Shown: positions 1-23,924 of the stretch, one piece after another
Layout of the letters: each line of letters starts with the position of its first letter
Position numbering within the stretch: position 1 is the first letter of the stretch
IMG/VR virus record: IMGVR_UViG_3300007346_005714
Coordinates: 1 to 24,692 of that record
DNA from: a virus
DNA: 24,692 nt
Reading direction: 5' to 3' (one strand)
Notes under the pieces: model-generated
Seen by the model: the letters and a program-made list of their open reading frames with translations, nothing else
Told to the model about the DNA's origin: nothing
The model's database searches: none
Made by a program: the position numbers and the translations under genes

Positions 1-1671
1 CCAACACGTTTGGCTGCGTTCTATGATTATGAGAGTATGGAATATACTCCTGAGATATCTGCGGCGTTGGATATCTATTCTGAGGAATCTACAACGGCAA
101 ACGAAGATGGTTACATCCTACAAATTTATTCTGAGAGTAATCGTATTAAGTCGGTATTGGCTGACCTATTCAACAACAGATTGGATATTGACACCAACTT
201 ACCGATGTGGACAAGAAACACCTGTAAGTATGGTGATAACTTCGTATACCTGAAGTTAGACCCTGATAAGGGTGTAATGGGTGGTGTTCAAATGCCGAAC
301 ATTGAAATCGAAAGATTGGAGAGAGGTATGAAGAGTGGTTCTCACAATCAATACAGTTTATCTCACGATGGTGAACAAACTGAGGCGATGAAGTTCACGT
401 GGAAAAACAAAGACATGGAGTTCAATACTTGGGAGATTGCTCACTTTAGATTATTGGGTGATGACAGAAAACTTCCTTACGGAACGTCTATGTTGGAGAA
501 AGCCAGAAGAATTTGGAAACAACTTATTCTTTCTGAAGATGCGATGTTAATCTATAGAACATCGAGAGCACCTGAGAGAAGGGTGTTTAAAGTATTCGTC
601 GGTAACATGGACGACAAAGATGTTGAACCGTATGTACAGCGAGTCGCCAATAAGTTCAAACGTGACCAGGTCGCAGACCCAGCAACGGGTAATGTCGACC
701 TACGTATGAACCAAATGGCCGTTGACCAAGATTACTTTATTCCTGTTCGTGACCCTAACGCTCCGAACCCTATTGATACTTTACCAGGTGCACAGAACCT
801 GTCAGAGATTGCGGATATTGAATACATCCAAAAGAAACTATTGACAGCACTTCGTGTTCCTAAGGCATTCTTAGGTTTTGAGGAGGTTACTGGTGAAGGT
901 AAGAACTTGGCATTACAGGATATTCGTTTTGCAAGAACTATCAACAGAATTCAAAGGTCGATGATTCAGGAATTGAATAAGATTGCAATCATCCACTTAT
1001 ATATCTTAGGTTTTGAGGACGAATTGAATAACTTTACATTAGGATTGACTAACCCATCAACTCAAGCTGACCTTCTTAAGGTAGAACAATGGCAACAGAA
1101 AATTCAGTTGTATAGAGATGCGGTATCTGACCCAGGTAATGGTATTCAACCAGTATCGTCATCATGGGCTAAGAAACACATTCTTGGATTCTCTGATGAA
1201 GAGATTAAATTGGATATCCAACAACAACGTATTGAGAAAGCTGTTGGTGCTGAACTTGAGAAAACTGCTGAGGTTATCATTCACACAGGTCTGTTTGACA
1301 ATATTGACAAACTATACGGTGAGAAAGGTAAGGCTGCAGAAGGTGAAGCAGGAAGTGAAGAAGGTGGAGACGACTTTGGAGGTGGCTCTGACTTTGGAAG
1401 TGACTTCGGTGGAGGTTCTGACTTTGGTGGTGGTGCAGACTTAGGTGGTGACCTTGGAGGTGACTTAGGTGCTGAGACGGCAGGTGAAACTGAGGTCGGT
1501 GCAGGTGCCGGTGGAGAGATTACTCCTGAATCGTTGGTTAAGAACAAAGACTTAGATTTAATCTTAGAAGATAGTTCATTATTTGGTAACGACACGACAA
1601 TAGATTTGTCAAAAGGTCGTCAGTCTTTAGGTGAGATTGAGAAAAAACTGAATGACTTACTAGATTCGTAA
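1..1671 (+). CDS. 20: Portal vertex protein, T4 gp20-like (5' partial)
   Basis: This forms the dodecameric ring at the head vertex through which DNA is packaged and to which the neck attaches. The reading frame is open to base 1, so the gene starts upstream; the TTG at 10 is only the first possible codon in the window. Family-like stretches are YTPEISAALDIYSEES near the start, NTCKYGDNFVYLKLD, the RIWKQLILSEDAMLIYRTSRAPERRVF stem region (shown here as RIWKQLILSEDAM and IYRTSRAPERRVF), VPKAFLGFEE and NLALQDIRFARTI. About 60 N-terminal residues appear to be missing compared with T4 gp20. The C-terminus carries an unusual Gly/Asp/Phe-rich low-complexity stretch encoded at about 1360-1520, followed by a short helical tail. 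It heads the head-gene order portal, protease, scaffold, capsid. Identity rests on sequence resemblance and gene order; both agree. Confidence 0.93.
   Translation, partial: PTRLAAFYDYESMEYTPEISAALDIYSEESTTANEDGYILQIYSESNRIKSVLADLFNNRLDIDTNLPMWTRNTCKYGDNFVYLKLDPDKGVMGGVQMPNIEIERLERGMKSGSHNQYSLSHDGEQTEAMKFTWKNKDMEFNTWEIAHFRLLGDDRKLPYGTSMLEKARRIWKQLILSEDAMLIYRTSRAPERRVFKVFVGNMDDKDVEPYVQRVANKFKRDQVADPATGNVDLRMNQMAVDQDYFIPVRDPNAPNPIDTLPGAQNLSEIADIEYIQKKLLTALRVPKAFLGFEEVTGEGKNLALQDIRFARTINRIQRSMIQELNKIAIIHLYILGFEDELNNFTLGLTNPSTQADLLKVEQWQQKIQLYRDAVSDPGNGIQPVSSSWAKKHILGFSDEEIKLDIQQQRIEKAVGAELEKTAEVIIHTGLFDNIDKLYGEKGKAAEGEAGSEEGGDDFGGGSDFGSDFGGGSDFGGGADLGGDLGGDLGAETAGETEVGAGAGGEITPESLVKNKDLDLILEDSSLFGNDTTIDLSKGRQSLGEIEKKLNDLLDS
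1360..1520 (+). repeat. Low-complexity Gly/Asp/Phe repeat in the portal C-terminus
   Basis: Imperfect tandem units encode GGGSDFG, GSDFGGG, GGADLGG and GGDLGGDLG. The DNA shows degenerate ggtgga/gacttt repeats. The stretch is acidic and glycine-rich, so it is probably a flexible linker on the portal rather than a folded domain. Confidence 0.75.
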
Positions 1672-1679
1672 TATTTATT
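1671..1679 (+). promoter_or_regulatory. R-TATTTAT-W element before the 1693 gene
   Basis: Sequence ATATTTATT, overlapping the portal stop codon and ending 13 bases before the ATG at 1693. It is one of eight sense-oriented copies in the window. A late promoter -10 element is inferred, not shown. Confidence 0.45.
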
Positions 1680-2732: not shown

Positions 2733-3170
2733 ATGAAAAAAGGGAAGACTTCAAAATTAGACATTTTTAAAAACGCAAAATGTAATTACGGGACAGTAGA
2801 TTCCCAAGAATTTAAATCACTTTATATCTCCATTCAATCGTGGGTCCAACCAAAAAAAGAAGCCACAAACTGGGACCGTGTAACGGGGAATATGTGTAGA
2901 GAAATAAAACACAATTTATTGGAGTCAGTAGACCCATTAACGTTCGAACAAAAAAATATTGTAGACTTAGATTTACGAAGTAGTGGAATTCAGTTGGGAA
3001 AGAGAAGTTTTATGAATTTAGAAATTACACTATTCATTAAAAATCCTGTAGATTTTAAATCACCAATATTAAGACAAAAAATTAAAGATATTTGTAAGTC
3101 AGTTTATAATGACGAACTGATGAATTCAGAGTATTTTACCTTCTACAAAACAAAATCGGTGAAAGTTTAA
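2733..3170 (+). CDS. Unknown 145-residue phage protein
   Basis: I do not recognise the family. The protein is compact and mixed alpha/beta with a basic N-terminus (MKKGKTSKLDIFKNAKCNYG), two Cys in the N-terminal half (the second in NMCREIKHNL), a DLRSSGIQLGKRSFMNLEI strand region and a C-terminal helical part with a third Cys (KDICKSVYND). It has no membrane segment. The start is the ATG at 2733; upstream ATGs at 2720 and 2729 are in another frame and give only a 16-codon ORF. It is the one gene in the head module with a sigma70-like promoter instead of the R-TATTTAT-W element, so it may be expressed earlier than its neighbours. The function is unknown. Confidence 0.8.
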   Translation: MKKGKTSKLDIFKNAKCNYGTVDSQEFKSLYISIQSWVQPKKEATNWDRVTGNMCREIKHNLLESVDPLTFEQKNIVDLDLRSSGIQLGKRSFMNLEITLFIKNPVDFKSPILRQKIKDICKSVYNDELMNSEYFTFYKTKSVKV

Positions 3171-3178
3171 TATTTATA
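3170..3178 (+). promoter_or_regulatory. R-TATTTAT-W element before the 3193 gene
   Basis: ATATTTATA starts on the last base of the preceding stop codon and ends 14 bases before the GTG at 3193. Its position supports the GTG start. Confidence 0.45.
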
Positions 3179-3601: not shown

Positions 3602-3610
3602 GTATTTATA
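3602..3610 (+). promoter_or_regulatory. R-TATTTAT-W element before the prohead protease gene
   Basis: GTATTTATA ends 16 bases before the ATG at 3627, in the 38-base gap after the 3193 gene. Sense orientation. Confidence 0.45.
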
Positions 3611-4669: not shown

Positions 4670-4678
4670 ATATTTATA
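4670..4678 (+). promoter_or_regulatory. R-TATTTAT-W element before the scaffold gene
   Basis: ATATTTATA lies 31 bases before the ATG at 4710 and 43 bases after the terminator, the expected place for a promoter of the scaffold-capsid unit. This is the best single argument for the element being a promoter. Confidence 0.5.
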
Positions 4679-10364: not shown

Positions 10365-10622
10365 TTATTTTTTACCCGGACAATATTTTCCCGAACATTT
10401 TTTGTTTCCATTTACATCGGGCATCTTTCCTTTACATACCTGAACCGCATATCCGTTAGCATAAGCAGATGGGTAAACTTCATATTTAGCCTTTGCAGCC
10501 GTAATACCTCTTTTACACAGCGTTGTGTCTTTTTTCTTCTTTTTAGATTTTTTCTTCTCGTCAATAACTCTTCTGACGATTTGTTCTAACATGTCTTCAG
10601 TGATGGTGATTACCTTTTTCAT
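10365..10622 (-). CDS. Cys-rich basic protein with protease-type N-terminal tag
   Basis: 85 residues. The N-terminus MKKVITITEDMLEQIVRRVI ends in I20-D21-E22/K, matching the I-x-E cleavage pattern of the prohead protease and closely resembling the tag of the 3193 protein (short strand ITIT, acidic residue, then an amphipathic helix). A lysine run (KKKSKKKKKD) follows, then a compact domain with four Cys: TLCKRGITAAKAKYEV, YPSAYANGYAVQVCKGK and KKCSGKYCPGKK. The YPSAYANGYAVQVCKG stretch is one I know from many marine phage proteins of unknown function; the Cys arrangement could bind zinc. The ATG overlaps the stop of the upstream 499-residue structural protein (ATGA), so the two are probably made together. 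Probably a small internal or surface head/tail component. Confidence 0.82.
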   Translation of the reverse strand: MKKVITITEDMLEQIVRRVIDEKKKSKKKKKDTTLCKRGITAAKAKYEVYPSAYANGYAVQVCKGKMPDVNGNKKCSGKYCPGKK

Positions 10623-12118
10623 TTTCTGTTAACTATTTGGAATTGAACCTCTCTTTTATAAGTATTGACTTCACGGTCAGAAACCACCTTCATATCGATA
10701 TAATATTCGTTTGGTATCTTATCTCTCATATCAAACATAAAGAAGTAACCATCAGCTGCTCTGTTGATTTTTGTCCAATCCTGAACCTGAACTTCAGTTG
10801 ACCCTTCCTTAACGTAAACTCTGTAGTAAGCATCTACATTAGTAATCATCTCTTTTGCAGTATATGCCTTTTTGATGGTTACGTTTACTTTTCTAATATC
10901 AGAAGATAAAATCTTCTCACCCTGTTTGATTCCGTTAAAATCGAAACCATACATCTTAGGTTCTTGTGTTTCTGTTCCAATAGTGAAATAGTTTTCACCT
11001 TTCTGTAAAACAAACTCATTCTCCACAACAGGTAAGTCCTCACCGTTATACTTTAAGTTATCCCATCTGTCGTAATACATACATGGGACCGTGTCTGAAG
11101 TAATTGCCGGTACGGAAATCTCATACATACCTAATGTTCTTGAACATGCGGTATATTCACCAATCAACACATCATCAGCATCATAAATCTTAACTGTTGG
11201 GTCTTCATCCAATGATATTGGATTACCGGCAACATAAGTGTATAAGAATAATTTGTTTGTTTTATTTTCGTAAAATGTATATCTATCATCCTCAACTAAA
11301 TCATTATAGTTGGTTTCAAGATATGGCTCGTAGAACGTTTGAGTGTGGCGTGAGAAGAAACCCACTGCATAATTCTCAGTCATCCCAGTAATGTTTTCAA
11401 CATCAGGTACAAATGCAATTCCCCAACCTGAGTGGTTTGCAGTTCCACCTGTGATAAGAGAGTTAATCTCATCAGTCATATCAAATTCAATATCTTCATT
11501 ACCAAACTCAAAATGTTGAGTATCAACAATAGTTAATCCTGAATAATTTAATCCGGTAATTTGGTTTGAGTTGGTGTTGTCGTAGATACCTGGTAGTGAC
11601 CAATTTTTAACTGTCGTTCTTTGATACCAGTTTACAGGTCGGTCAGAAAAAGATTTATCGGTTGCCAGTTCCTGAGAAACTGACATCGCGTTTGAACTAT
11701 TAAGGGCTGTTGAAGAGTTGTAGTAATCATACCCAACACCTTCGTCCCATAACTGAGGGTTACCTGTTGAACCTGATACTTTAGGGATTCTAAATAATAC
11801 CAAATCAAATGATGTTGCTCTTCTTCTTCCGTTTGACCACGTGGTGTTCAATAACTCCTCATCAAATGAAGAGGTGTTAGTCATCTTAAGAGTGTGGGTC
11901 ATATCAAAGGTACAACCTGTTGAAATGGTCCCGTCGGCAATCTTTGCATTCAACTGAGATAAGTCCAAATCAAAGATAAAACGACTATAACCCATGGGGG
12001 ATATGACGTTATCTACTCTACCAAAGAATAATTCAACAACAGGGTTTCTACCTGTGTTGGTATAAGAGTTAAAAATTAACGTATCGTTTTTACTAAAATA
12101 TGACTTATGAACAGACAT
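10619..12118 (-). CDS. Large beta-rich virion protein, DNRLRE-like N-terminus
   Basis: 499 residues, probably a virion surface or tail/baseplate-associated protein. The N-terminal 270 residues resemble the DNRLRE/CBM96 type of beta-sandwich: GRNPVVELFFGRVDN, SRFIFDLDLSQL, FDMTDEINSLI, NHSGWGIAFVPD and the closing FYEPYLETNYND. Two or three further beta domains follow (TVKIYDADDVLIGEYTA; KVNVTIKKAYTAKEM; TYKREVQFQIVNRK), with Ig-like strand patterns. No signal peptide or transmembrane segment is present. Such proteins often act in attachment or decoration, but the exact role is unproven. It follows the baseplate genes after 22 bases and carries its own R-TATTTAT-W element, implying strong late expression. 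A short Cys-rich protein is coupled behind it. Confidence 0.8.
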   Translation of the reverse strand: MSVHKSYFSKNDTLIFNSYTNTGRNPVVELFFGRVDNVISPMGYSRFIFDLDLSQLNAKIADGTISTGCTFDMTHTLKMTNTSSFDEELLNTTWSNGRRRATSFDLVLFRIPKVSGSTGNPQLWDEGVGYDYYNSSTALNSSNAMSVSQELATDKSFSDRPVNWYQRTTVKNWSLPGIYDNTNSNQITGLNYSGLTIVDTQHFEFGNEDIEFDMTDEINSLITGGTANHSGWGIAFVPDVENITGMTENYAVGFFSRHTQTFYEPYLETNYNDLVEDDRYTFYENKTNKLFLYTYVAGNPISLDEDPTVKIYDADDVLIGEYTACSRTLGMYEISVPAITSDTVPCMYYDRWDNLKYNGEDLPVVENEFVLQKGENYFTIGTETQEPKMYGFDFNGIKQGEKILSSDIRKVNVTIKKAYTAKEMITNVDAYYRVYVKEGSTEVQVQDWTKINRAADGYFFMFDMRDKIPNEYYIDMKVVSDREVNTYKREVQFQIVNRK

Positions 12119-12131
12119 TGCAACTTTTTAC

Positions 12132-12140
12132 TATAAATAC
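12132..12140 (-). promoter_or_regulatory. R-TATTTAT-W element before the 499-residue virion gene
   Basis: On the minus strand GTATTTATA, 13 bases before the ATG, overlapping the gap behind the gp5-like gene. The opposite strand reads TATAAATAC, which contains the T4 late-promoter core, but pointing away from the gene. Confidence 0.45.
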
Positions 12141-13658: not shown

Positions 13659-13858
13659 TACTTATTACCTCTGACTTTGTATTCGTTTAAGATATCGTTA
13701 TATATCTTTTCTGTTGCGTCCAAATGGTAAGTCAATTTCATCAACATCTCTTTTGTTTGTTCGAAGTCTTTATTGAGTTCTTCCATCGCAAGTTTCAAAT
13801 CTCCGTTTGAACGATTTTTATAATTCTTGATTATTTCTTGTAATTTACTCTGTTCCAT
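13658..13858 (-). CDS. Small coiled-coil protein in the baseplate cluster
   Basis: 66 residues, almost wholly helical and charged, with heptad-like leucines (KLQEIIKNY, LKLAMEELNKDFEQTKEMLM, YNDILNEYK). It has no family that I recognise. Both ends overlap neighbours as TAATG (with the 647-residue gene upstream and the gp5-like gene downstream), so all three are probably translated as a coupled set and may assemble together. A chaperone or small baseplate subunit is possible; nothing in the sequence decides between these. Confidence 0.8.
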   Translation of the reverse strand: MEQSKLQEIIKNYKNRSNGDLKLAMEELNKDFEQTKEMLMKLTYHLDATEKIYNDILNEYKVRGNK

Positions 13859-15801
13859 TATCTTGATTTTCCTACACCTCTAGAAGGTAATGTTACGCCT
13901 GCCGGTGTCATAGTCAACGGTGGAATATAAACCTCAGTAACACCATTTTCGTCTTGTTCTTTCTTCCCACCTTTAATTTGAGATAGAATAGATTGCAGCA
14001 TTAAGTTTGGTGACCCATCAGGTAAATCATCGGTTGGTAAACCTGATTTTTCCATTTCTTCAATAACGTTTGCAAACATCCTCGTCTCAGAAACACCAGG
14101 TAATGAACCTGCAAGTGCTAAAGCGAACAATGGTAAATTAAGATTTAATCTACCGACGGCTAATTGTAATAATGCCAATAACTCATCTATTACAGATTTA
14201 CACCTCCTCCAATCCTGTATCAAACCTGTGAGTATGATTGCGGTTGATAGAATGGATGAAATAATCCTAACAGTTGATTCCTGACTTTCTTTTCTGATAT
14301 CATTCAATAACGCCAATACAATACTGTCAATATTGTTCTTAATTGCGTTAAATAATTCTTCCACGAAGATGGCACCCACCTTACTCATCACCTCAACTAA
14401 GAACGATTTCATTTTATTAATGAACTCACTAATGTCTTGAATTTGGTCGACAAATACATTCCCCAGTGCTTTGAATATTACAAACATCCCCAATAGATTT
14501 TTAGGGGAAAGTAAAGTTGCCATAATTGCTTGAGGGATAACTTTTAACATATCCTGTTGAATAGCGAGTTGGAAGTTAATGTTTGGAAGGGTAAACTGCC
14601 AATCCTCATTATCACCAATCTCAGTACCAAACTTAGACAGTTGCTCCAACTTCTCACCATCTGTGTTAAAGTTGTCTCTAATATCTTGAAGGAATGCAAT
14701 GGTTTCTTGGTCCTTCATTGGTAATTTTACATTATCACAATCTGTAAACTCTACAACACCTTTAATGATATTTTCAACATCATTTTCAATGTTACGTAAA
14801 TCTATTGAGCTCATTTGAAAGAAACTGTCGTCCAATTGTTCGTTGACGGATAGTTTAGCAATTCCTGAAACATCAATCTCCTTTTGATTATCAAAACAAA
14901 GACCTAAGATTCTTTGAAGAATAACCTGAAGTTTTTTCATCTCACCCAATTGGGTTTGACCCACATTCAGATTAAATGAAATTGCACCCATCAAATATTC
15001 GATAATATTGCTAATTAACTCATCAATATTCAAAAGGTCTATACTCATGTAATAGTCGTATAGAAACTCGGTAACTCTATTAATTTGGTCAGGTCTATTC
15101 TTTAATGTGACTTTGTAGAAATTACCATTATTACCAAAATTATCTTGAGTAACATATGCAATGTCCATAATCGCATTACTTGATGCACCAATATAGTTGG
15201 CTAATGCAACACCAGCATTTTGGGTTCTTTCATACAATTCTCGGTTCATTGAGAACGGTATTGTCCCGTTTGCGGTGTTTAACTTTTCATATCTTAAATT
15301 ACTTGGAGACTCATTTGGTGAGTCTTTTAATGTTTGAAATAAATCTATAGACTCAACACGAATGTAGACATCATTATTCTGATAAGTTTGTTCCTCTGAA
15401 CAACCAACCGCTTTGATGGTTTCTTGAATCCAAAGTTCCGTAATCCTACTCTTAGTTTCTAAGATAGTATCATTGTAAATCTCTGTAAGTTTTTTTGTGG
15501 ATTCATATTTAGATTCTTTACCTTCACCCTCTTTTGATGATATCATAAAGATTTCAGTAAGTTGGTCCAATTGTGAGGTTATGGAGTCTTTGATTAACCT
15601 ACGTTTTTCATCGGTATACCCCTGAGCAGTTTCACCCCATTCGTTTAGATTACTAAAGTGTTTTTCTTGTGCTTTGGCAAAGTTATCACCAGCTTGGTCT
15701 TTTTTCTTTTGAGCAGCATCTTTTTTTGACTGAACAGTCTTCTTATAAGCACTTATTTTGTCTTTAATTTTTTTGTAATCGTCACTGTTGTCAATTGCCA
15801 T
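13858..15801 (-). CDS. Large predicted baseplate/tail protein, family unknown
   Basis: 647 residues. The N-terminal 90 residues are Lys/Ala/Gln-rich and coiled-coil-like (AYKKTVQSKKDAAQKKKDQ). A middle part of mixed fold includes NDVYIRVESIDLFQTL and NFYKVTLKNRPDQINRVTEF, the latter resembling an OB- or strand-rich element. Residues about 420-575 contain several hydrophobic helices (LLGMFVIFKALGNVFVDQI, AIFVEELFNAIKNNI, IISSILSTAIILTGLI, LPLFALALAGSL) that could be membrane-active or pack in a tail-tip assembly. The C-terminus is Pro/Gly-rich (TEVYIPPLTMTPAGVTLP). I recognise this as a type found beside gp5-like genes in T4-like phages but cannot name it. Inference: part of the hub or a tail protein inserted in the host envelope. 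Confidence 0.78.
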   Translation of the reverse strand: MAIDNSDDYKKIKDKISAYKKTVQSKKDAAQKKKDQAGDNFAKAQEKHFSNLNEWGETAQGYTDEKRRLIKDSITSQLDQLTEIFMISSKEGEGKESKYESTKKLTEIYNDTILETKSRITELWIQETIKAVGCSEEQTYQNNDVYIRVESIDLFQTLKDSPNESPSNLRYEKLNTANGTIPFSMNRELYERTQNAGVALANYIGASSNAIMDIAYVTQDNFGNNGNFYKVTLKNRPDQINRVTEFLYDYYMSIDLLNIDELISNIIEYLMGAISFNLNVGQTQLGEMKKLQVILQRILGLCFDNQKEIDVSGIAKLSVNEQLDDSFFQMSSIDLRNIENDVENIIKGVVEFTDCDNVKLPMKDQETIAFLQDIRDNFNTDGEKLEQLSKFGTEIGDNEDWQFTLPNINFQLAIQQDMLKVIPQAIMATLLSPKNLLGMFVIFKALGNVFVDQIQDISEFINKMKSFLVEVMSKVGAIFVEELFNAIKNNIDSIVLALLNDIRKESQESTVRIISSILSTAIILTGLIQDWRRCKSVIDELLALLQLAVGRLNLNLPLFALALAGSLPGVSETRMFANVIEEMEKSGLPTDDLPDGSPNLMLQSILSQIKGGKKEQDENGVTEVYIPPLTMTPAGVTLPSRGVGKSR

Positions 15802-15813
15802 TCTTAGAGAATA

Positions 15814-16188
15814 TTAGTCTAATTTATACCCTCCGTCTTTGTCATCTTTCTCAGTATCTTTTTGAATAAGTGCAGATAAAACATCTTCATCCATCTCAGC
15901 GAGATTGAAGGTCTCTTCACTGTTGTTTTGTGATTTTTCCCAAATAGTGGATTGAAGTTTAGATAAAGTTAACTTCTTTTCGATGGTGTCGTTAATAATC
16001 TTTTGTTGTTCTTTGATTACAGGACCAATAACCGTCATATCTTCGGGGTCCTTTAACATACTTAACATTTTGTTTTGAATTCTAACGGCAGTTGCTCTCT
16101 GCTCCACAAGCTCGTTGTAGATTTCCTGCATTAGACTGAGAACGGAGTCTTTACTTAAAACAATTTCTTTTTTCTTCGGTCTTCCCAT
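15814..16188 (-). CDS. Unknown helical protein with RPKKK N-terminus
   Basis: 124 residues. It starts MGRPKKKEIVLSKDS, a GRPKK sequence like an AT-hook core, then long helices (VLSLMQEIYNELVEQRATAV, IQNKMLSMLKDPEDM, KEQQKIINDTIEKKLTLSKL) and an acidic disordered tail (TEKDDKDGGYKLD). I do not recognise the family. It sits between the late sigma factor gene and the baseplate genes, 29 bases after the former and 12 before the latter. The R-TATTTAT-W element lies only six bases before its ATG. A regulator or small structural protein are both possible. Confidence 0.8.
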   Translation of the reverse strand: MGRPKKKEIVLSKDSVLSLMQEIYNELVEQRATAVRIQNKMLSMLKDPEDMTVIGPVIKEQQKIINDTIEKKLTLSKLQSTIWEKSQNNSEETFNLAEMDEDVLSALIQKDTEKDDKDGGYKLD

Positions 16189-16194
16189 AGTAAC

Positions 16195-16203
16195 AATAAA
16201 TAT
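16195..16203 (-). promoter_or_regulatory. R-TATTTAT-W element before the 15814-16188 gene
   Basis: On the minus strand ATATTTATT, six bases before the ATG in the gap after the sigma factor gene. If it is a promoter, its mRNA would be nearly leaderless. It could start the baseplate transcript. Confidence 0.45.
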
Positions 16204-16217
16204 CTTTCCATTCCTTT

Positions 16218-16970
16218 TTACAAGTTATGTATCTTCTTTAGAAGTTCGTAATAAAGGTTTTTGAATTTTTTCATCGAACTTCTAATTTCTTTAGTGGACA
16301 TATTGGTCATTTCTCTAAGTGAAAGTAAGATGATATTCTTATTAAATTTATTGTTGTCGGTACCTATGAATATCTCGTCATAGTTTTCGAAAAGTTGAAT
16401 CAATGCGAAACCTAACTTTTGTTCGTTATCATTCAATTTAGTAGTTTCCATATAATCATCCATTTCTTTTAAGAATGATTTAATAACTTGACTTGGTTCA
16501 ACAACGTCGTGTTCCAAGTGATAAATTAAGTCAGGTCGATATTCTAAAGATGAGGATATGTCCTCATAGGATATTTTTCTATTTTGGTCTTTTTGGTCTT
16601 TGATGATTTGTCCCATCAAATAGTTTTTACAAATGGTACCAAAATATGAATATGCCTTTTTACCTTTTGAGGGCTTAAACTTGTCAACTTTTGTAATTAA
16701 AAAAGAATGGGTGTCGTGATGTATTTCGATGAAGTCCATTCCTTTTCTATAAAGTTTGTACCTCCTTATGATTGATTCAATCATCTTATCTAACGGAGCC
16801 TTCAAATAGTCATTATAGATTTTATTTTTTTCGTCAAAAGTGGAGGCAGACAAAAACATTCTAACCGCATGTTCCTCGCGCTCAGCAAAGTAATTGTTGG
16901 TGGTCTTCGGCTTCCTCCCACGTTTTTTGGGAGGATTGGCCGAAGTTCCTGTCATACCTGATAAAAACAT
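16218..16970 (-). CDS. 55: Late-transcription sigma factor, T4 gp55-like
   Basis: A phage sigma factor that directs host RNA polymerase to late promoters. Of 250 residues, 31-120 match the family: EREEHAVRMFLSASTFDEKN, YNDYLKAPLDKMIESIIRRY, HSFLITKVDKFKPSKGKKAY and SYFGTICKNYLMGQIIKD, which is sigma region 2-like. The C-terminal part is helical and ends KKFKNLYYELLKKIHNL, where T4 gp55 has its clamp-binding tail. Unusually, the N-terminus contains KKRGRKPK (15-22), an AT-hook-type minor-groove binding motif. The ATG at 16970 overlaps the stop of the glycosyltransferase gene as TAATG, which supports this start over Met6. T4 gp55 is 185 residues. It is the natural partner of the R-TATTTAT-W elements in the window, but that link is inferred. 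Confidence 0.85.
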   Translation of the reverse strand: MFLSGMTGTSANPPKKRGRKPKTTNNYFAEREEHAVRMFLSASTFDEKNKIYNDYLKAPLDKMIESIIRRYKLYRKGMDFIEIHHDTHSFLITKVDKFKPSKGKKAYSYFGTICKNYLMGQIIKDQKDQNRKISYEDISSSLEYRPDLIYHLEHDVVEPSQVIKSFLKEMDDYMETTKLNDNEQKLGFALIQLFENYDEIFIGTDNNKFNKNIILLSLREMTNMSTKEIRSSMKKFKNLYYELLKKIHNL

Positions 16971-17773
16971 TAAACCTCACTTGGTTCATATTTTATGTTT
17001 CTGTCTTCAACGAAGAAGTGTTCTTTTTTAGCTGCGTCCAACCAAAACTTAACTTCATTATCAGAAACTCTTTGTTCACCATTTTTGTAGTTCCAGAATA
17101 TGGACCCCTCACGTAAGTTTACGTGTTTGTAACCAATACGAGGGATGGTCATGATTTTTGCTGAGTTGTATGTTAACCTCAATAAAAATTCGTAAACGAA
17201 TGTAAGTTTCATTGAGGGTTTGAATCCACCTAAGTCTTGGTAAGTTTCTTTTTTGATAACCATACCACTACTTTGGAAGTTCTGATAGTTAAGTAGGACC
17301 TCGTTAGTTAATACACCGATTTCGGTATTCATAGATGCCGCGAATGTTGCTTCGTTTGTGAAACCCGCAAAAGCTCCTTTGTTGTCAACATCCACAACCA
17401 AAGATAAGAATCCCTCATATTCAGGATAAGCTTCAACAAATCTTTTTACGTTTTTAAACCAAATAGATGCGTATTCATCATCAAACTCTAAGAATGATAC
17501 CCACTTTGATTTTGCATTCTCAACGCCTAAATTCATTTGTGTTGCGAAATCTGTTTTTCCTTTGTTTTCAACCAAATTTACAGTTAATCCACTGAAATCA
17601 AAATTAGTTAAATATGAAACCAACTTCTCTTCGTCAGAGTGAACCAATACCAACTCTGTTGGTGATACGGTTTGATTTTGAATTGATTGAATTGATGCAG
17701 TGAAAAGTTCTTCAAAGTTCTTGTGCATGTAACTTTCCACTGGTAATATTACTGATACGTCTAAATTCTCCAT
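16970..17773 (-). CDS. Glycosyltransferase, family 2-like
   Basis: 267 residues with a GT-A fold pattern: DVSVILPVESY (5-15), SIQSIQNQTVSPTELVLVHS (28-46), NKGKTDFATQMNLGVENAKS (70-89, nucleotide-sugar binding region) and WVSFLEFDDEYA (91-102), with FDDE in the place of the usual DxD metal-binding motif. GGFKPSMKLTFVYEFLLRL in the C-terminal half matches the acceptor-side region with the E-x-L/D pattern. No membrane segment is seen, so it is a cytoplasmic enzyme. The sugar donor and acceptor cannot be told from the sequence. One base separates it from the preceding glycosyltransferase gene, and its stop overlaps the sigma factor start, so it is coexpressed with both. Confidence 0.85.
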   Translation of the reverse strand: MENLDVSVILPVESYMHKNFEELFTASIQSIQNQTVSPTELVLVHSDEEKLVSYLTNFDFSGLTVNLVENKGKTDFATQMNLGVENAKSKWVSFLEFDDEYASIWFKNVKRFVEAYPEYEGFLSLVVDVDNKGAFAGFTNEATFAASMNTEIGVLTNEVLLNYQNFQSSGMVIKKETYQDLGGFKPSMKLTFVYEFLLRLTYNSAKIMTIPRIGYKHVNLREGSIFWNYKNGEQRVSDNEVKFWLDAAKKEHFFVEDRNIKYEPSEV

Positions 17774-17774
17774 T

Positions 17775-18839
17775 TTACTCTACTTCTTCTACTTTAAGTT
17801 TATTAAGTTGCTCCTCGAAGTTTTCCAATCTTACGTTGATGTAACTATTGAAAGTTTCAACAATCGTTCCTTGGAATTTTTCTTCGTCCATGAACTTCGC
17901 AGCGGTTTCTAACCCTGCGTCGTATAGTTGGTCTGAGATGTTGTCTTCCAACCAATTTTGTGTGAACTCTGCCAATACATCAACAATGTTATTGTATTCA
18001 TAAGTCCATACACCATTTTTCTCGTCCATCCAATCAGGTTTCATATTTGGAACCTTACCAATTACTGGTGTTCTACTTGCCATAGATTCAAGTGGGAATG
18101 TTCCGAAACCTGAAGTGTCGTCCACCCAAACAGATACATAAGCATCTCTCAAATACTCAGCAAACTCTTCTTGGTTAATACCTCTCATATCACGGAAGGT
18201 AACCCAACGGAATTGTGGGTATTTTAAGTAGAATGATTTGATAATCTTCATAGTGTCTCTTTGGTCACGAGTGTGAATAGAAACGATTGGTTTTGATGGT
18301 TTGTCTTTTGCAACAAACGTAGAAGGGATAAGTGGTTCAACAATATCAAAAGTTGTATTCTTCATCACCCCTTTAATGTAATCCGCTTGAAGTTGATTAG
18401 TGGTGATACACTTACGGAATCCGTATTGTGCCCAATTCATACCAGGTTGGATTGTTTCCAACATGTGGTCGTATGCTTGACATAGAACGATTTTACCTGA
18501 TGGAATCTGACTAACCTGTTCAAATACGTGACCGTAGATTTCAGGGATAATCAAAAAGTCCTCAGGGGAAACCTGAAGGTCTTGACCGTCGATAGACTGA
18601 TGAGGGAGTTCCATATATTCTTCACCCATCCAACTACCCACACCTGCGTAGTCTTTTGTTTCATGTAATATTACAGGGTTGAATCCATTATCTTTCAATG
18701 TTTTTGCCATTTGATAGATGTAACGAATACCACCTTTGGCGTTGCCTTTGGTGTCTTGCACCAAAAAGAAAAGCTTCGAGTTTTTCTCACGAAGATTTCC
18801 AATAGACTTTTCTAATTTGTTAATAGTGTCTTGCTCCAT
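17775..18839 (-). CDS. Glycosyltransferase, GT-B fold (family 1/4-like)
   Basis: 354 residues. The N-terminal domain has NAKGGIRYIYQMAKTLKDNG (33-52), the glycine-rich loop and helix of GT4 enzymes. The C-terminal domain has PIVSIHTRDQRDTMKIIKSF (184-203) and DDTSGFGTFPLESMASRTPV (240-259), in which the GFGTFPLESMA stretch with E251 is the donor-phosphate/ribose-binding motif of the family. The final 40 residues are a coiled coil, perhaps for dimerisation or pairing with the next enzyme. It has no membrane segment. Its start overlaps the stop of the upstream 96-residue gene (TAATG), and it is adjacent to a GT2-like gene, so the two may add successive sugars. Donor and acceptor are unknown. 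Confidence 0.88.
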   Translation of the reverse strand: MEQDTINKLEKSIGNLREKNSKLFFLVQDTKGNAKGGIRYIYQMAKTLKDNGFNPVILHETKDYAGVGSWMGEEYMELPHQSIDGQDLQVSPEDFLIIPEIYGHVFEQVSQIPSGKIVLCQAYDHMLETIQPGMNWAQYGFRKCITTNQLQADYIKGVMKNTTFDIVEPLIPSTFVAKDKPSKPIVSIHTRDQRDTMKIIKSFYLKYPQFRWVTFRDMRGINQEEFAEYLRDAYVSVWVDDTSGFGTFPLESMASRTPVIGKVPNMKPDWMDEKNGVWTYEYNNIVDVLAEFTQNWLEDNISDQLYDAGLETAAKFMDEEKFQGTIVETFNSYINVRLENFEEQLNKLKVEEVE

Positions 18840-19129
18840 TAGTATGCAGTTTTTATAATGTTATATTTTAATAAAGTATTAAATGCCAACTTAAAGGGAA
18901 GGCTCAACTCATTTGTTTTGATTACACCTAAGTTATTATCTATCTCTTCTCTTTCTGACATTACAACCTCAATCATAATTTTAAGAATGTCATATTTGAT
19001 TAATGAGAATTGTTGTCCTTCTTCTCCCTCTTCTTCTTTTTCGGAATTTGGCTCTTTTTTTATTTCAACCAAATCGTCCAAAGCTGTAAAATCCAAATAA
19101 TAGTTTTCACCGAATATTTCAATCATCAT
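18839..19129 (-). CDS. Unknown 96-residue acidic protein
   Basis: It starts MMIEIFGENYYLDFTALDDL, followed by a Glu-rich stretch (about 26-40) and helical segments YDILKIMIEVVMSEREEID and LPFKLAFNTLLKYNIIKTAY. No family is recognised. The ATG could be either of two adjacent codons. It overlaps the preceding HAD-like gene by 11 bases and the following glycosyltransferase gene as TAATG, so it belongs to the same cotranscribed series. Size and strand/helix content are like small accessory proteins of T4-like phages. Confidence 0.78.
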   Translation of the reverse strand: MMIEIFGENYYLDFTALDDLVEIKKEPNSEKEEEGEEGQQFSLIKYDILKIMIEVVMSEREEIDNNLGVIKTNELSLPFKLAFNTLLKYNIIKTAY

Positions 19130-19730
19130 TTTTCTTTAGTTTTAGTTCTTCATATAATCCGACTAAATCTTCCAACTTTTCGATGGTGTAATCAGCCTCT
19201 AAATCCTCATTGTAAGTGGTTTGATATTTTACAATGATTTTGTTTTTTCTTTTTGACTTAATAAGGTCAGGGTTTGCAGTTACCAATATGTCAAATTCTT
19301 TCCATATTGTTTTCTGTGTGACCTTTGAAAAGAATAGTATCTTCTCAATCAAAATACCATATTTTGATAAGAAAAATAATGTTGCAGGTTTTGACTTCTC
19401 AATCTCATCTGAGATAATAATCAAATCATTGTCATCTCTTAAGTCGTAATAGATATCGTTTAACACGTGAAATGTGCTGTTTTCAACAGAGCCGGCATGT
19501 CCAAAAATATTCATTGGGAAGTCCACATAAAAGAAGTTCATTATATCTTCTTCATTTGGGAATTTAAAATGGTCAATGAGGTTCATACTGGTAATTGGTA
19601 AATCCATACCATACTCAAACTCTTCTTTCTCTTCTTCTGAAATTTCGTCAATGTAAAACTTTTGGTAGACTTGTTCAGCCTTACCAAAAGTATTTCTTAA
19701 AACTCCATTGATGTCAAACGCTATTTTCAT
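19119..19730 (-). CDS. HAD-like protein with altered active site
   Basis: 203 residues. The N-terminus MKIAFDINGVLRNTF is the first motif of haloacid dehalogenase-fold phosphatases (D6 would be the nucleophile). The second Asp, the acid/base in active phosphatases, is Asn8 here. Motif II is likely LIIISDE, Lys in SKPATLFFLSKYGI serves as motif III, and FDILVTANPDLI as motif IV. The size and the layout fit phage 5'-nucleotidase-type HAD proteins, which recycle nucleotides, but the D-to-N change could reduce or remove catalysis. It overlaps PhoH as ATGA and the 96-residue gene. Fold call is good; activity is open. Confidence 0.75.
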   Translation of the reverse strand: MKIAFDINGVLRNTFGKAEQVYQKFYIDEISEEEKEEFEYGMDLPITSMNLIDHFKFPNEEDIMNFFYVDFPMNIFGHAGSVENSTFHVLNDIYYDLRDDNDLIIISDEIEKSKPATLFFLSKYGILIEKILFFSKVTQKTIWKEFDILVTANPDLIKSKRKNKIIVKYQTTYNEDLEADYTIEKLEDLVGLYEELKLKKNDD

Positions 19731-20443
19731 TTGTCGTATTTGTCTAATATCTTAGTGATTATCGGATTACGAATGATATCTTTAGATTCGAAGTTATAGA
19801 CACCAAAACCTTCGATGTCATTAAATCTAGTCATTGCATCCCACAACCCTGAATGTGTTTTGTCTTTATATCGGTCCGTTTGCTCCACATCACCTGAGAT
19901 GAAAAACTTGGAGTTAAATCCGATACGTGTTAATAACAACTTCATTTGATTTGGTGTTGAGTTTTGAGCCTCTTCAAAAATCAAAATCGAGTTGTCAATG
20001 TTCATACCCCTCATATAAGCTAAAGCGAATACTTCAATAACATCCGCCTGAACTAACTTCTCTTTAGCCTCCTTACCAACAATTTTTGTTAGAAGGTAAT
20101 ACGATGGAAAAATGTAAGGGTCCAATTTTTCTTCCAGATTACCTGGTAACGCTCCGAGTTTCTCTTCAGCTTCCACGGCGGGTCTTACGATGATAATCTT
20201 TTCATAATCATTATTTTCATCTAATAAGAGTTGAACCGCAGCACTCATAGCCACGTAACTTTTACCAACACCAGCGGGACCTGTACAAATTGTTATTTCA
20301 CTGTTTTCTAATGTTTGGTAATATTCTTTTTGACTTTCAGAAAGAAACTTCTTTCTTGGTGTCTTACCTATTATTTCTCTTATAATTTCTTTACGAGACA
20401 TTTTCTTTTGACTCGTTTCAGTTCTTCTACCTCTATTTGGCAT
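19727..20443 (-). CDS. phoH: PhoH-like ATPase
   Basis: 238 residues. A P-loop ATPase of the PhoH family, common in T4-like and marine phages. Features: basic N-terminus, Walker A GPAGVGKS (55-62), IIIVRPAVEAEEKLGALPGN (83-102), Walker B region ILIFEEAQN (153-161; most relatives have DEAQN, here EEAQN) and SGDVEQTD (183-190), the sensor-like motif. The role is uncertain in the family; RNA metabolism or a helicase-like activity has been proposed. The start is the ATG at 20443; the TTG just before it is a poorer start. It lies between the sugar epimerase gene and the HAD-like gene, with 18 bases before it. Confidence 0.93.
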   Translation of the reverse strand: MPNRGRRTETSQKKMSRKEIIREIIGKTPRKKFLSESQKEYYQTLENSEITICTGPAGVGKSYVAMSAAVQLLLDENNDYEKIIIVRPAVEAEEKLGALPGNLEEKLDPYIFPSYYLLTKIVGKEAKEKLVQADVIEVFALAYMRGMNIDNSILIFEEAQNSTPNQMKLLLTRIGFNSKFFISGDVEQTDRYKDKTHSGLWDAMTRFNDIEGFGVYNFESKDIIRNPIITKILDKYDK

Positions 20444-20461
20444 CAAATAAGTTTTTAAATA

Positions 20462-21556
20462 TTATTTTACTAACTCTCGAGTCTCGTGCGGTGCACCAAA
20501 CTCTCTACGGTAAACGGTTTCTCCACCGTCAGGACTTTCATAAATGTAAGTCTTCTTCTCATCTTGAACCTGTTCGTTCACCCAATCAAATGTTTTTTCC
20601 ATACCTATTCTTAAAGGTTGAGATACCGCCCAACCAATTTTTTCTTCATACAGTTTATTATCAGAGTTTCTACCTCTCACTCCCAACGGACATGTAAACC
20701 CGTATTTGGTGACAAATTCTTCACCCTGTATATTCTTAATTTTAAGGTCTTTTCCTGAGATATCAATAGCCATCTGTGCCAACTCGTTGATAGATACCAT
20801 CTCCTCTGAACCGATATTTACAGGACCCTTAAAATCAGACTCCATAAGTCTTAATACTGCCTCGACACATTCGTCCACATATAAGAATGAACGAGTCTGC
20901 TCTCCATCACCCCATACTTCGATTTCACCACCTTCAGGAGTCTCAGCCACTTTTCTACACATTGCGGCAGGTGCCTTCTCTTTTCCACCCGTCCATGTCC
21001 CCATAGGTCCAAAGATGTTATGGAAACGAGCAACCCTCACATCTAATCCGTAGTTACGATTGAACGCTAAGAATAATCTCTCAGAGAATAACTTTTCCCA
21101 TCCATACTCAGAGTCAGGATTTGCCGGATACGCAGATGATTCTTCACAGTTAGGGTTTGTTGGGTCTAACTGATTGTGTTCAGGATACATACATGCGGAT
21201 GATGAGTAAAATACTTTACCCACCTTCTTTTTGGTACATTCGTGAACAACGTTAAGGTTAATAAGGGCCGAGTTGTGCATTACGTTGGCATCGTTATCAC
21301 CAGTGAAGATATAACCTGCACCACCCATATCTGCGGCTAATTGGTATACCTCATCGATAGTATCATCTATCACTGTTGCAACCACTTCGGGGTTACGTAG
21401 GTCTCCTACAATGAACTCATGACAAATGTCTTCGTGATTCCAATATTCGTGTCTTTTGATGTCACAGATACGAACCCAGTGACCTTCTTCTTTTAATCTT
21501 TTTCCGAGGTGTCCTCCGATGAATCCACCTCCACCTAATATTACTATTTTTTTCAT
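20462..21556 (-). CDS. GDP-mannose 3,5-epimerase-like enzyme
   Basis: 364 residues of the extended short-chain dehydrogenase type. It has GGGGFIGGHL (G8, G11, G14) for NAD binding, SSSACMYPE (118-126), SEYGWEK (149-155; Y151, K155), RFHNIFGPMGTWTGGKEKAP (177-196; K194), TRSFLYVDECVEAVLRLMES (221-240) and GVRGRNSDN (292-300). The residues correspond to the catalytic set known from Arabidopsis GDP-mannose 3,5-epimerase (C145, Y174, K178, K217) with exactly the same spacing: C122, Y151, K155, K194. The product would be GDP-L-galactose (or GDP-L-gulose). The C-terminal 30 residues (YIYESPDGGETVYRREFGAP) are an extra tail. It overlaps the methyltransferase gene as ATGA. It links to the GT11-like enzymes upstream. 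Confidence 0.92.
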   Translation of the reverse strand: MKKIVILGGGGFIGGHLGKRLKEEGHWVRICDIKRHEYWNHEDICHEFIVGDLRNPEVVATVIDDTIDEVYQLAADMGGAGYIFTGDNDANVMHNSALINLNVVHECTKKKVGKVFYSSSACMYPEHNQLDPTNPNCEESSAYPANPDSEYGWEKLFSERLFLAFNRNYGLDVRVARFHNIFGPMGTWTGGKEKAPAAMCRKVAETPEGGEIEVWGDGEQTRSFLYVDECVEAVLRLMESDFKGPVNIGSEEMVSINELAQMAIDISGKDLKIKNIQGEEFVTKYGFTCPLGVRGRNSDNKLYEEKIGWAVSQPLRIGMEKTFDWVNEQVQDEKKTYIYESPDGGETVYRREFGAPHETRELVK

Positions 21557-22266
21557 AATCCTTCAAATATATAATTAATTTTATTTAACTCATCTTTAAG
21601 ATTTTGATTCACATATGTGGAATCAAAAGATGTATGACTTTTAACTGTAAAATTTAAAGACTTTAACAAGGAGTCAATTTCATTATTTTGATTAGTGGTC
21701 CCAATATATTGATTGGTTGTGTTATTTTCAAAAGTAATATATGCCACTTTACCTAAATAATCTTCAACACCTTTTATTATGTTAAAATCTTCCCCTTGAC
21801 AGTCTATTTTTATCTGTTCAATGTAGTCAATGTTATCCCACACAATAAGGTCTAAAAACTGTGATAATTTAAATTTATTAACTTTAATTTTTTCACTACT
21901 AAAAATATTAGATGGGTATAAACTTGATGTTCCACAATCCCCAACATTTGTTGAATAAAAATCAACATATCCTTCTTCATTACTCAATGCAATTGGTATT
22001 AAATGGAATGAGTCACCTATCTTTTCGATTGGTAATATATTTTTAAAATTACCTTCTCTTGGTATTAATCCTTTTAACATATTTTGAGCTTTTGGATTAG
22101 GTTCAAAACCAAAAACAATAACGTCTTGGTCTGTTTCTAACCATAACTTACTATTTGGTGCGTTATGTGACAGCCCAATATCAATTTTAATCCTTTTAAA
22201 TTTTTTTGGTATTATAATTTTATCATCCTGTAATAATTCTCGTGGTATAAATTCTGTTATTTTCAT
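21553..22266 (-). CDS. FkbM-type methyltransferase
   Basis: 237 residues. SAM-dependent methyltransferase fold of the FkbM type: KRIKIDIGLSHN (24-35) is motif I with the usual D-x-G, VFGFEPNPKA (51-60) carries the acidic residue that binds the SAM ribose followed by the E-P-N-P signature, and IEQIKIDCQGEDFNIIKGVE is the family's signature K-I-D-(V/C)-x-G-x-(E/D) region. FkbM-type enzymes O-methylate sugars or other hydroxyls. It follows GT11-like genes and overlaps both neighbours as ATGA, so it probably methylates the glycan made by this cluster. The gene is clearly more AT-rich than the epimerase gene that follows. Confidence 0.88.
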   Translation of the reverse strand: MKITEFIPRELLQDDKIIIPKKFKRIKIDIGLSHNAPNSKLWLETDQDVIVFGFEPNPKAQNMLKGLIPREGNFKNILPIEKIGDSFHLIPIALSNEEGYVDFYSTNVGDCGTSSLYPSNIFSSEKIKVNKFKLSQFLDLIVWDNIDYIEQIKIDCQGEDFNIIKGVEDYLGKVAYITFENNTTNQYIGTTNQNNEIDSLLKSLNFTVKSHTSFDSTYVNQNLKDELNKINYIFEGL

Positions 22267-23045
22267 ATTATTTGACCGTTTTCATTTAAAAATTTAGTTC
22301 CATCATACCATGAATGTGAAAATGTTTTTCGTGAATATACATATTTATTTTGACCATAAAGGTGTGATGAGTAACTTAAAGAGCTGTTAGCGGTCACTAA
22401 TATATCCGCATAAATCATATGGTAAATAGTCGACAATAAATCGTCGTTTATATGTAAATTAACTTTAAATTTCTCACTAATAAATAAAAAATCATTTTTA
22501 TTCCCTTGTGAGAAAATATGTATATCTAAATCATTCCCATGTATATTTTGTAGATTATCTATGATATTGGTATAGTAATTCTTTTTTTGCTCAGTAAAGT
22601 CGAAATATTCTCTAGAATTCGCGTTACAGGTATCTTGTGAATTTAAAACTCGAATGTGTATAACAACACTCAATTTATCTTTATTGAAATAAAATTCTCC
22701 ATTATATGTAATTCTATTTGATAACTCTTCTATATACTTCCTTTTAGATTTAATATTTTGCTCCCCCCACGTTTTCAATAAAAAACGACTATCTATTAAT
22801 TCTATATTTTGTGATTTACTTGAGGGTAAGTTATAAAATTTGTTAATATTTGAAACGAAAATTTCTTGTGTTTGGTCCGTATTTTGAAAATGTGATAAAT
22901 TAATAAATCCTGGAAAATAAAAATTACAATTTTTTATTCTCGAATACGCGTATCCGTGCAGTTGTAACTGAACCATAGCACCAACACCTTCAGTATTTTT
23001 CCCATCATAATTGACATACACCGTATTAATGTTAGTTTTCGTCAT
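22263..23045 (-). CDS. Fucosyltransferase-like glycosyltransferase (divergent)
   Basis: 260 residues. The C-terminal half carries the fold pattern of fucosyltransferase-type GT-B enzymes: LSVVIHIRVLNSQDTC, where H-I-R replaces the H-x-R-R-G-D of GT11, and IYADILVTANSSLSYSSHLYG (in parts, YADILVTANSS and LSYSSHLYGQ), corresponding to the D-x-x-(I/V)-x-S-N-S-S-F-S-W-W motif, with Tyr in place of Trp. The N-terminal half contains GVGAMVQLQLHGYAYSR, similar to the G-x-G-N-Q-(L/M)-F-Q region but without the Asn-Gln pair. It is therefore a diverged family member with unknown donor. It overlaps the methyltransferase gene as ATGA and lies 39 bases after the GT11 gene. It is AT-rich. Confidence 0.72.
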   Translation of the reverse strand: MTKTNINTVYVNYDGKNTEGVGAMVQLQLHGYAYSRIKNCNFYFPGFINLSHFQNTDQTQEIFVSNINKFYNLPSSKSQNIELIDSRFLLKTWGEQNIKSKRKYIEELSNRITYNGEFYFNKDKLSVVIHIRVLNSQDTCNANSREYFDFTEQKKNYYTNIIDNLQNIHGNDLDIHIFSQGNKNDFLFISEKFKVNLHINDDLLSTIYHMIYADILVTANSSLSYSSHLYGQNKYVYSRKTFSHSWYDGTKFLNENGQII

Positions 23046-23084
23046 GGTTGAAAGTGTTTGAACTTAATTTTCTTAAATCTATTA

Positions 23085-23924
23085 TTATAATATTTTCCAA
23101 TTTTCAGGGTATATATCCTCATCATTTACTGAATCATTTACCGCAAAATTATGAGGGCTAATAATATTTTCATTTTTATTCAAATATGATGCCCACCAAC
23201 TAAAGGTGGAGTTAAATGAGGTTATGCAATAATCAACTTTTTTTATAATCGAAAAAGTTTCAATATCGTCAACATCGTTAACGTATAATATTCGTTTGTC
23301 TTTAATATTTTCTTTACACCAATTTAAATCTGAGTCATAATTTGAGGTTTTACGAGAACCACCAGTAAATAATAATATTGTAGAGTCTTCAGGTATAATA
23401 GAAAGGGCTTGTGTGTGATATTTTTTTAAAATAGAATTATCACTATACTGATTACTCCAACCCGCATTGCGATTAGTCCCATCTGAAACATCTCCTCTTC
23501 TAACATGTAATGAAACCGTTGTATTGTTAAATTTTGATAAATATTCACCACCAAAATCTTCATACTTAGGTATCATTTGAAATTCGTTAAGTAACTCTTC
23601 TCTGATATTTTTATAATAATTAATATTTTGAAAAAATCCAAAATAGTCAGTGTCGTCTGGCATATCATAAACAGATTCAATAAAGTCACGGTTAGATGAA
23701 AATGGTTCATTAAATTTCTGTTTAACTTGAATATTTTTTTTTACGGATGACGGTAATAAAAACAAATCCAACTTATTTTTTTGACCGTGCCAAGACCTAT
23801 TATGTAGATTACTTGGTAATGCAATTTCGTAACCATTTTTTAATGATACAGATTTAAGTAGAGCATACTGAAAAAGTTGGTTTCCAAGTCTACCATAATT
23901 ACCTAACTGACTAAATGTTATCAT
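23085..23924 (-). CDS. Alpha-1,2-fucosyltransferase-like enzyme (GT11)
   Basis: 279 residues, the usual length for GT11. It has the three family motifs: GRLGNQLFQYA (11-21), VSLHVRRGDV (137-146, the H-x-R-R-G-D donor-binding motif) and DYCITSFNSTFSWWASYLN (231-249). These enzymes transfer L-fucose from GDP-L-fucose, alpha-1,2, to galactose or similar acceptors. In this cluster the only sugar-nucleotide enzyme visible that makes a GDP-L-sugar is the GDP-mannose 3,5-epimerase, whose product, GDP-L-galactose, differs from GDP-L-fucose only by the 6-hydroxyl. The enzyme may therefore use L-galactose; the GDP-fucose genes could also lie outside the window. It overlaps the dehydrogenase gene as ATGA. 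AT-rich, with no signal or membrane segment. Confidence 0.92.
   Translation of the reverse strand: MITFSQLGNYGRLGNQLFQYALLKSVSLKNGYEIALPSNLHNRSWHGQKNKLDLFLLPSSVKKNIQVKQKFNEPFSSNRDFIESVYDMPDDTDYFGFFQNINYYKNIREELLNEFQMIPKYEDFGGEYLSKFNNTTVSLHVRRGDVSDGTNRNAGWSNQYSDNSILKKYHTQALSIIPEDSTILLFTGGSRKTSNYDSDLNWCKENIKDKRILYVNDVDDIETFSIIKKVDYCITSFNSTFSWWASYLNKNENIISPHNFAVNDSVNDEDIYPENWKIL

Follow-up and report, generated by a model that had tools for sequence, protein, structure and literature searches.

The stretch of viral DNA analysed here (the window, a complete IMG/VR record of 24,692 bases) encodes a protein that is a distant and divergent member of the T4 gp55 family, to judge from profile comparison and predicted fold, and thus a predicted late sigma factor. 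Near its N-terminus the protein carries a short basic arm, KKRGRK, which is a real and selected feature of this gp55 variant that had been given the wrong label. A sequence-only reading of the same DNA had recognised a gp55-like sigma factor with a basic N-terminal segment, and both the assignment and the conservation of the segment stood up to analysis; its description of the segment as a classical AT-hook, with a specific role at the promoter element R-TATTTAT-W, did not.

The predicted late sigma factor and its assignment to the gp55 family

The gene and the domain on which its assignment is based are located as follows.

16218..16970, minus strand: gene of the gp55-family late sigma factor, 250 amino acids
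16578..16883, minus strand: sigma region-2 homology domain, residues 30-131, predicted from structure superposition and sequence matches

The start codon of the sigma gene shares bases with the stop codon of the upstream glycosyltransferase gene (TAATG). The window also contains a head module of the T4 type, in which a portal protein, a head protease and a major capsid protein were recognised by PHROG. Among the best-covered relatives of the capsid protein, the named ones were those of Rhodothermus phage RM378, Microcystis phage Mel-JY01 and Flavobacterium phage immuto, together with one uncultured phage record.

Membership in the gp55 family is indicated by profile-profile comparison, by the predicted region-2 fold and by the conservation of several of the residues with which gp55 makes its contacts. 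In the hhalign comparison, a profile of 31 diverse members was aligned with nine named gp55 proteins (from T4, Acj9, RB43, Vibrio, Aeromonas and four cyanophages) at P 2.4e-6, with a score of 46.1 and prob 89, as against a score of 13.8 for the reversed profile and of at most 29.4 for 60 column shuffles. When T4 gp55 alone served as the target, E-values of 0.0096 and 0.0074 were obtained. The 31-member profile was also searched against the PDB with hmmsearch, where T4 gp55 was the sole sequence retrieved at E up to 10 (E 0.59), in a colinear match (1-130/1-134). Moreover, PHROG 234 (“late sigma”) was matched by 40 of 50 close homologues (best E 7e-4) and Sigma70_r2 by 16 of the 31 diverse members (best E 0.0026), which together with the profile comparison and the fold bears out the earlier naming of a gp55-like late sigma factor.

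Searches with the window protein alone were too weak to decide the matter, and the naming is thus settled by the diverse profile only. The single sequence matched PHROG 234 weakly (E 0.031) and Sigma70_r2 at E 0.012, under the cut-off and accompanied by other Pfam matches that were equally weak; its top phmmer match in the PDB was a biotin ligase (E 0.033), SigA chains reaching 0.38 at best. A PDB search with the profile of close homologues yielded no sigma factor, just pleckstrin (E 0.41-0.52).

The predicted model (mean pLDDT 72; Foldseek E-values weak) was superposed on region 2 of sigmaE (4lup_A) with Z 8.1 and an rmsd of 2.6 over 91 residues, and on T4 gp55 (7d7c_F) with Z 7.5 and an rmsd of 6.1 over 124 residues. 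The T4 gp55 residues that contact the -10-like element and the clamp helices of RNA polymerase, as named in one structural account, include Y97, F86, D74, E70, H95, T99, E77 and N13 (PMC7892883). Y97 corresponds to Y109, kept in 31 of 31 diverse members; F86 to F98, conserved in at least 90%; D74 to D86, kept in 50 of 50 close homologues; and Glu70 to E82 of the window protein. Other pocket residues are changed, H95 to Tyr107 and T99 to Gly111, N13 has no clear match, and Glu77 is not kept in the window protein. The aromatic residue at T4 Tyr10, which has been described as absolutely conserved (PMC2988020), is represented by Y27.

In comparison with T4 gp55 (PHROG 234; PDB 7d7c and 7d7d), the window protein is alike in its region-2 fold, in its colinear sequence relation, in its counterparts of Tyr10, Asp74, Phe86 and Tyr97, and in being associated with a -10-like element for which no -35 element was detected. 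It differs in the KKRGRK arm at residues 15-20 (the T4 protein starts with MSETKPK), in some 90 extra conserved C-terminal residues, in the lack of a recognisable clamp-binding tail, and in the element itself, which is TATTTAT(A) here. The element of T4 gp55 is TATAAATA. The sigma relatives in Mel-JY01 and immuto are annotated as hypothetical proteins, so that naming the family should aid the annotation of T4-like phages.

Conservation and selection of the basic arm

16911..16928, minus strand: KKRGRK, codons 15-20, AT-hook-like basic arm, defined by conservation and pN/pS 0.133

The basic string KKRGRKPK is present at residues 15-22 of the 250-residue protein, as the earlier reading had noted. 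That reading had proposed an alignment of the N-termini of homologues, and the set aligned here consisted of the best 80 of 597 and of 584 confirmed relatives from two overlapping scans (108 loci and 85 unique proteins including that of the window), a choice by which diverged forms are under-sampled. Within this clade RGRK was kept in 75 of the 85 unique proteins, GRK without the preceding arginine was found in 8 more, and 2 had neither; apart from the 8 sequences with GRK, the RGRK-less groups were those of loci L038-L040 and L046. Over 89 unique coding sequences, K20 was found in all 89, G18 and R19 in 87, K16 in 85 and R17 in 79, and the residue following RGRK was proline in 34, alanine in 33, threonine in 16 and another residue in 6.

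Codons 15-20 gave a pN/pS of 0.133 with a pS of 0.77, synonymous change being frequent and replacement rare. The corresponding values were 0.82 before the arm, 0.80 after it and 0.095-0.42 in the folded parts of the protein. By these ratios, the arm codons are under strong purifying selection. The motif occurs 13 to 54 residues from the start of the protein and 4-6 residues ahead of an invariant NYF motif, in a region (residues 1-30) that is predicted to be disordered, with pLDDT values of 36-53 per ten-residue block. In one locus (L018:2887-3744) the variable stretch ahead of RGRK is enlarged by short repeats (SGNTxTTE-like).

Starts rich in lysine are frequent in the sister clade and in the neighbouring gene, and the arm might accordingly be read as a functionless product of A-rich codons near the start. 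This explanation is hardly credible in view of the distance of the motif from the start codon and of the constancy of its amino acids despite synonymous variation, with five codons in use for R17 and four for G18. Moreover, when 60 representative non-sigma ORF families were taken from the same loci, none contained RGRK, nor did any of 3000 composition shuffles, and [KR]GRK arose in only 16 of 16,800 shuffled sigma N-termini; by these base rates the arm is not due to chance.

The sister clade was collected with the immuto protein as query (best 80 of 600); the Mel-JY01 protein, used as query in viral contigs, found no relative. Flavobacterium phage vB_FspM_immuto (QQO91832.1) and its relatives resemble the window in possessing an orthologue, the same gene order, with a partner of about 120 residues, and the same TATTTAT promoters. 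In contrast to the window protein, that of immuto has a short start, MAKPKNKDNYYF, and RGR was found within the first 40 residues of none of the 75 unique relatives. Most of these have the short basic start M[AGP]RKKSKANYF, under milder constraint (pN/pS 0.66), and it is thus not demonstrated that gp55 proteins of this kind generally require a basic arm. The RGRK-less members of the window clade retain other lysines before NYF (TKTKKKSTS, IKKKLKTKV), so that they do not demonstrate the dispensability of positive charge.

The basic segment had also been described as an addition to gp55. Its presence is clear, as stated above, yet in some gp55 proteins the conserved tyrosine is preceded by a few basic residues (MSETKPKYNY in T4, KKK in two cyanophages), and in others it is not. 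The arm is a lineage-specific version of a short basic N-terminal segment that some other gp55 proteins possess as well. In a tree of 60 rows built without the arm (in which one row scored as GRK only through its MGRKK start), RGRK was strongly clustered: it required 5 changes, where shuffling gave a mean of 19, and 3 of the 5 were forced by well-supported branches. This distribution is compatible with one gain followed by later losses, which is not thereby proven.

The TATTTAT promoter element

R-TATTTAT-W, proposed earlier as the late promoter element, is enriched in the window, with 9 sites against 3.2 expected, a number reached by 1 of 100 shuffles. TATTTAT was observed within 60 bases upstream of 7 of the 30 window ORFs taken as genes. 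In the RGRK clade, for which three sources were used, it occurred at -60 to -5 in 50 of 217 genes (about 8 in shuffles), as against 1 of 179 in coding windows, and in the sister clade, likewise from three sources, in 41 of 325 genes (about 7 expected from shuffles). No -35 partner element was detected for it. TATTTAT is a real phage promoter signal, and the following sites in the window precede genes.

16195..16203, minus strand: ATATTTATT, late-type -10 element before the gene at 15814-16188
1671..1679, plus strand: R-TATTTAT-W before the gene at 1693-2421
3170..3178, plus strand: R-TATTTAT-W before the gene at 3193-3588
3602..3610, plus strand: R-TATTTAT-W before the head protease gene at 3627-4346
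4670..4678, plus strand: R-TATTTAT-W before the gene at 4710-6155
12132..12140, minus strand: R-TATTTAT-W before the gene at 10619-12118

The major capsid gene is without TATTTAT, in the window and in immuto alike, and the sigma gene itself has none within 60 bases upstream.

Before the gene that adjoins the sigma gene (its partner gene), 78 of 81 unique sequences of the RGRK clade have the element, at a distance of 11-14 bases from the ATG. In the sister clade it stands before the same gene in all 67 unique sequences, mostly 17-24 bases away from the ATG. In 48 of the 78 sequences of the RGRK clade (the window site at 16195-16203 and homologous loci), the element starts at -11. The element thus ends just a few bases ahead of the ATG, and if it acts as a -10 element, the transcript would have little or no leader.

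The presence of the element does not follow that of the arm. Besides the sister clade, the two arm-less members of the window clade that were examined retain it (L038/L039 and L046, at -11 and -12), which argues that the arm does not recognise TATTTAT; the specific role at R-TATTTAT-W once suggested for the arm is thus left without support. Two loci with GRK, L037 and L041, are without TATTTAT before the partner gene. The A+T content near the element was similar in both clades (0.75 versus 0.69 upstream and 0.81 versus 0.87 downstream, from 53 and 40 sites).

Resemblance of the arm to AT-hooks

The sequence of the arm is AT-hook-like, and the term classical AT-hook appears to be wrong for it. 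The core consensus of HMGA-type hooks is given as RGRP (PMC5028900, PMC11354804), with RGR as the inserted core (PMC5028900). RGRP was found in none of the 84 sigma ORFs that passed the stricter ATG and length rule of the base-rate test; their core is RGRK[P/A/T], which contradicts the “classical AT-hook core” of the earlier reading. The closest parallel is “AT-hook 2” of human MeCP2, for which the tested peptide includes PKKRGRKP, a string identical in the window protein. Its AT-hook character was reported as “barely detectable”, and the authors point to the proline that is missing straight after RGR (PMC5028900). The absence of RGRP and the reported weakness of the identical string both argue against a classical AT-hook. 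MeCP2 is a eukaryotic chromatin protein, unlike the protein studied here, and no common descent is claimed. Within the clade, the displaced proline that follows RGRK is itself often lost, being present in 34 of 89 sequences.

Among bacterial proteins, WhiB7 is named as containing an AT-hook (PMC11354804). This transcription factor is a promoter-specificity factor with a minor-groove hook, to which the putative hook-like arm of the window protein may be likened; the two belong to different protein families. The hook of WhiB7 is RGRP. Among the open-licence PMC papers listed, no report was found of a gp55 with an AT-hook, of an arm of this kind or of TATTTAT as a late promoter.

A true AT-hook, in which RGRK would enter the minor groove at AT-rich late promoters and add a preference for the R-TATTTAT-W region, would suit several features of the system: the window protein combines an RGR centre with lysines on its flanks and, one residue further along, a proline, RGR is the core inserted by HMGA-type hooks (PMC5028900), and the promoter sequence surrounding the element has an A+T content of about 69-87%. 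This explanation is nevertheless considered unlikely, since RGRP is missing and the proline so often lost, since the element is also present in the clade that lacks RGRK (67 of 67) and in L038/L039 and L046, and since the flanking A+T content is similar in both clades. A tempting label is thereby corrected: the KRGRK core is not an AT-hook sequence, and relatives without the arm share the promoter element.

Proposed role of the arm

The explanation preferred here, with moderate confidence, is that of a divergent late sigma factor that docks on the host RNA polymerase and reads TATTTAT(A), its arm being a putative DNA anchor. The protein would serve as the sigma factor of a group of T4-like phages related to immuto, Mel-JY01 and RM378. 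Its region-2 domain would dock on the host polymerase, as suggested by homology and by the conserved contact residues, and would read the opened, -10-like TATTTAT(A) of TATTTATA promoters in the manner of T4 gp55. The disordered N-terminus, with its K-K-R-G-R-K-[P/A/T] arm, would most likely act as a flexible anchor on AT-rich promoter DNA beside the -10 element, in contact with phosphates and perhaps also with the minor groove. In this way the arm could raise the affinity of a weakly binding sigma factor that has no detectable -35 partner element, and it would not be the determinant of TATTTAT recognition.

Before promoter opening, the DNA binding of the T4 gp55-polymerase complex is described as weak and non-specific (PMC2988020), a stage at which a basic anchor would presumably help. 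The N-terminal segment of T4 gp55 is reported to be disordered in the open complex and poorly conserved among homologues, and Asn13 to contact the base at -9 (PMC7892883). The arm leaves the protein near the position that Asn13 occupies in T4, and a basic anchor on promoter or fork DNA would therefore be its simplest role.

The main rival to DNA anchoring is a protein contact, in which the arm would bind RNA polymerase, the 124-residue partner or another phage factor. A pN/pS of 0.133, within the range of the folded core (0.095-0.42), would fit a precise contact of this kind, and the partner, whose gene adjoins the sigma gene, is acidic in its C-terminal part. The arm region is predicted to be disordered, however, and this contact is regarded as rather unlikely. 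Basic RGR-type peptides are able to bind RNA, as some extended AT-hooks are reported to be. Binding of the arm to RNA, either the nascent transcript or host RNA, seems very improbable: extended AT-hooks are mentioned in the literature (PMC11354804), but nothing in the locus points to RNA.

The C-terminal domain and the sliding clamp

16224..16496, minus strand: conserved helical C-terminal domain, residues 159-249, in place of the T4 linker and clamp-binding motif

T4 gp55 lacks the last 90 residues or so, which both clades conserve and which include the motif NNKFNKNIILLSLREMTN.STKEIR, recognisable in the sister clade as FKKKALYIYIREMT. Folded alone, the domain was predicted with a pLDDT of 82.7. 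Its superposition on domain 4 of sigmaA (4g8x_A) gave Z 4.0 and an rmsd of 3.3 over 60 residues, with unrelated rows reaching Z 5.6, and a structure search with the isolated domain gave no clear fold, the best rows being RavZ and sigma-54 fragments. In a viral structure library no match was found under E 0.001, and several sigma-named entries appeared among the weak rows. No Pfam region 4 family was present among the 25 families listed, out of 31, for 65 members. The full-length superposition on sigmaE gave Z 8.3 but an rmsd of 18.4, and the C-terminus resembled region 4 by eye.

A clamp-binding tail was not visible by eye at the C-terminus of the window protein, which ends in ELLKKIHNL. Four of the nine reference proteins, those of the cyanophages, also end without a clamp-binding motif, and the motif is thus not family-defining. 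The T4 gp33 family (PF16805) was detected in none of 17 records, of which 14 are possibly incomplete contigs, and the gp45 family in none over the cut-off, with a single sub-threshold match (E 0.035) in 1 of the 17. Since the gp33 search also gave below-cut-off matches in 7 of 14 unrelated control genomes, and so many contigs may be incomplete, the absence of gp33 and gp45 is not demonstrated.

The textbook minimal sigma factor is gp55, and that of T4 depends on a clamp that tracks along DNA. A more far-reaching and doubtful proposal is that this aquatic T4-like clade possesses a self-sufficient late sigma factor, in which a gp55 region 2 would be combined with a C-terminal domain that serves at the flap or the -35 region in place of gp33 or sigma region 4, and with an evolved AT-hook-like arm, from which the protein would draw the promoter affinity that clamp activation otherwise provides. 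If true, such a protein would represent a naturally occurring intermediate that links two-domain sigma factors to the split gp55 and gp33 of T4. A large environmental clade with a different N-terminal arm and a different C-terminal domain on the same kind of promoter offers in any case natural variants in which the parts that confer affinity can be told from those that confer specificity.

The partner gene and other genes of the window

15814..16188, minus strand: 124-residue partner gene, start MxRPx[KR]KEI, adjoining the sigma gene in all loci read

The gene order of sigma factor, partner of about 120 residues and large gene of the tail or baseplate cluster (13858-16970 in the window) is common to the window, Mel-JY01, the uncultured record LR756508 and immuto (loci compared: L110, L111 and L113). 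The partner protein is highly conserved, and its C-terminal part is acidic. Its identification as a gp33 homologue was not supported, hhalign against T4 gp33 giving a probability of 0.1 and P 0.46, with T4-based gp33 models that may miss distant forms.

Motifs similar to the arm had been noted at the starts of two other proteins of the window, and the starts themselves, MGRPKKK (15814-16188) and MARPKK (8236-8652), are indeed present; they are xRP starts without a hook core. Among 74 members of the partner family, R3 was found in 71 and P4 in all 74, whereas residue 2 was proline in 22, glycine in 18, alanine in 16, serine in 15 and threonine in 3. With glycine in only 18 of 74, the family has no conserved GRP hook. 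The partner proteins of the sister clade have starts of the MSLDKEIF type.

A very acidic protein of 481 residues (4710-6155) is encoded between the head protease and capsid genes, the position of the scaffold core protein in T4; nothing in PHROG matched it at E up to 0.01. A cluster of genes related to sugars (glycosyltransferase, nucleotide-sugar epimerase and UDP-glucose dehydrogenase) occupies 16970-24667, immediately upstream of the sigma gene and around a gene for a PhoH-like protein (19727-20446). This PhoH-like protein also has a basic start, NRGRRTETSQKKMSRKEI, with which may be compared the start of one protein in a related genome, MATKGRKGDFNPKKSRKEI. One possible relative of the protein encoded at 8236 starts with MAKKKKTE.
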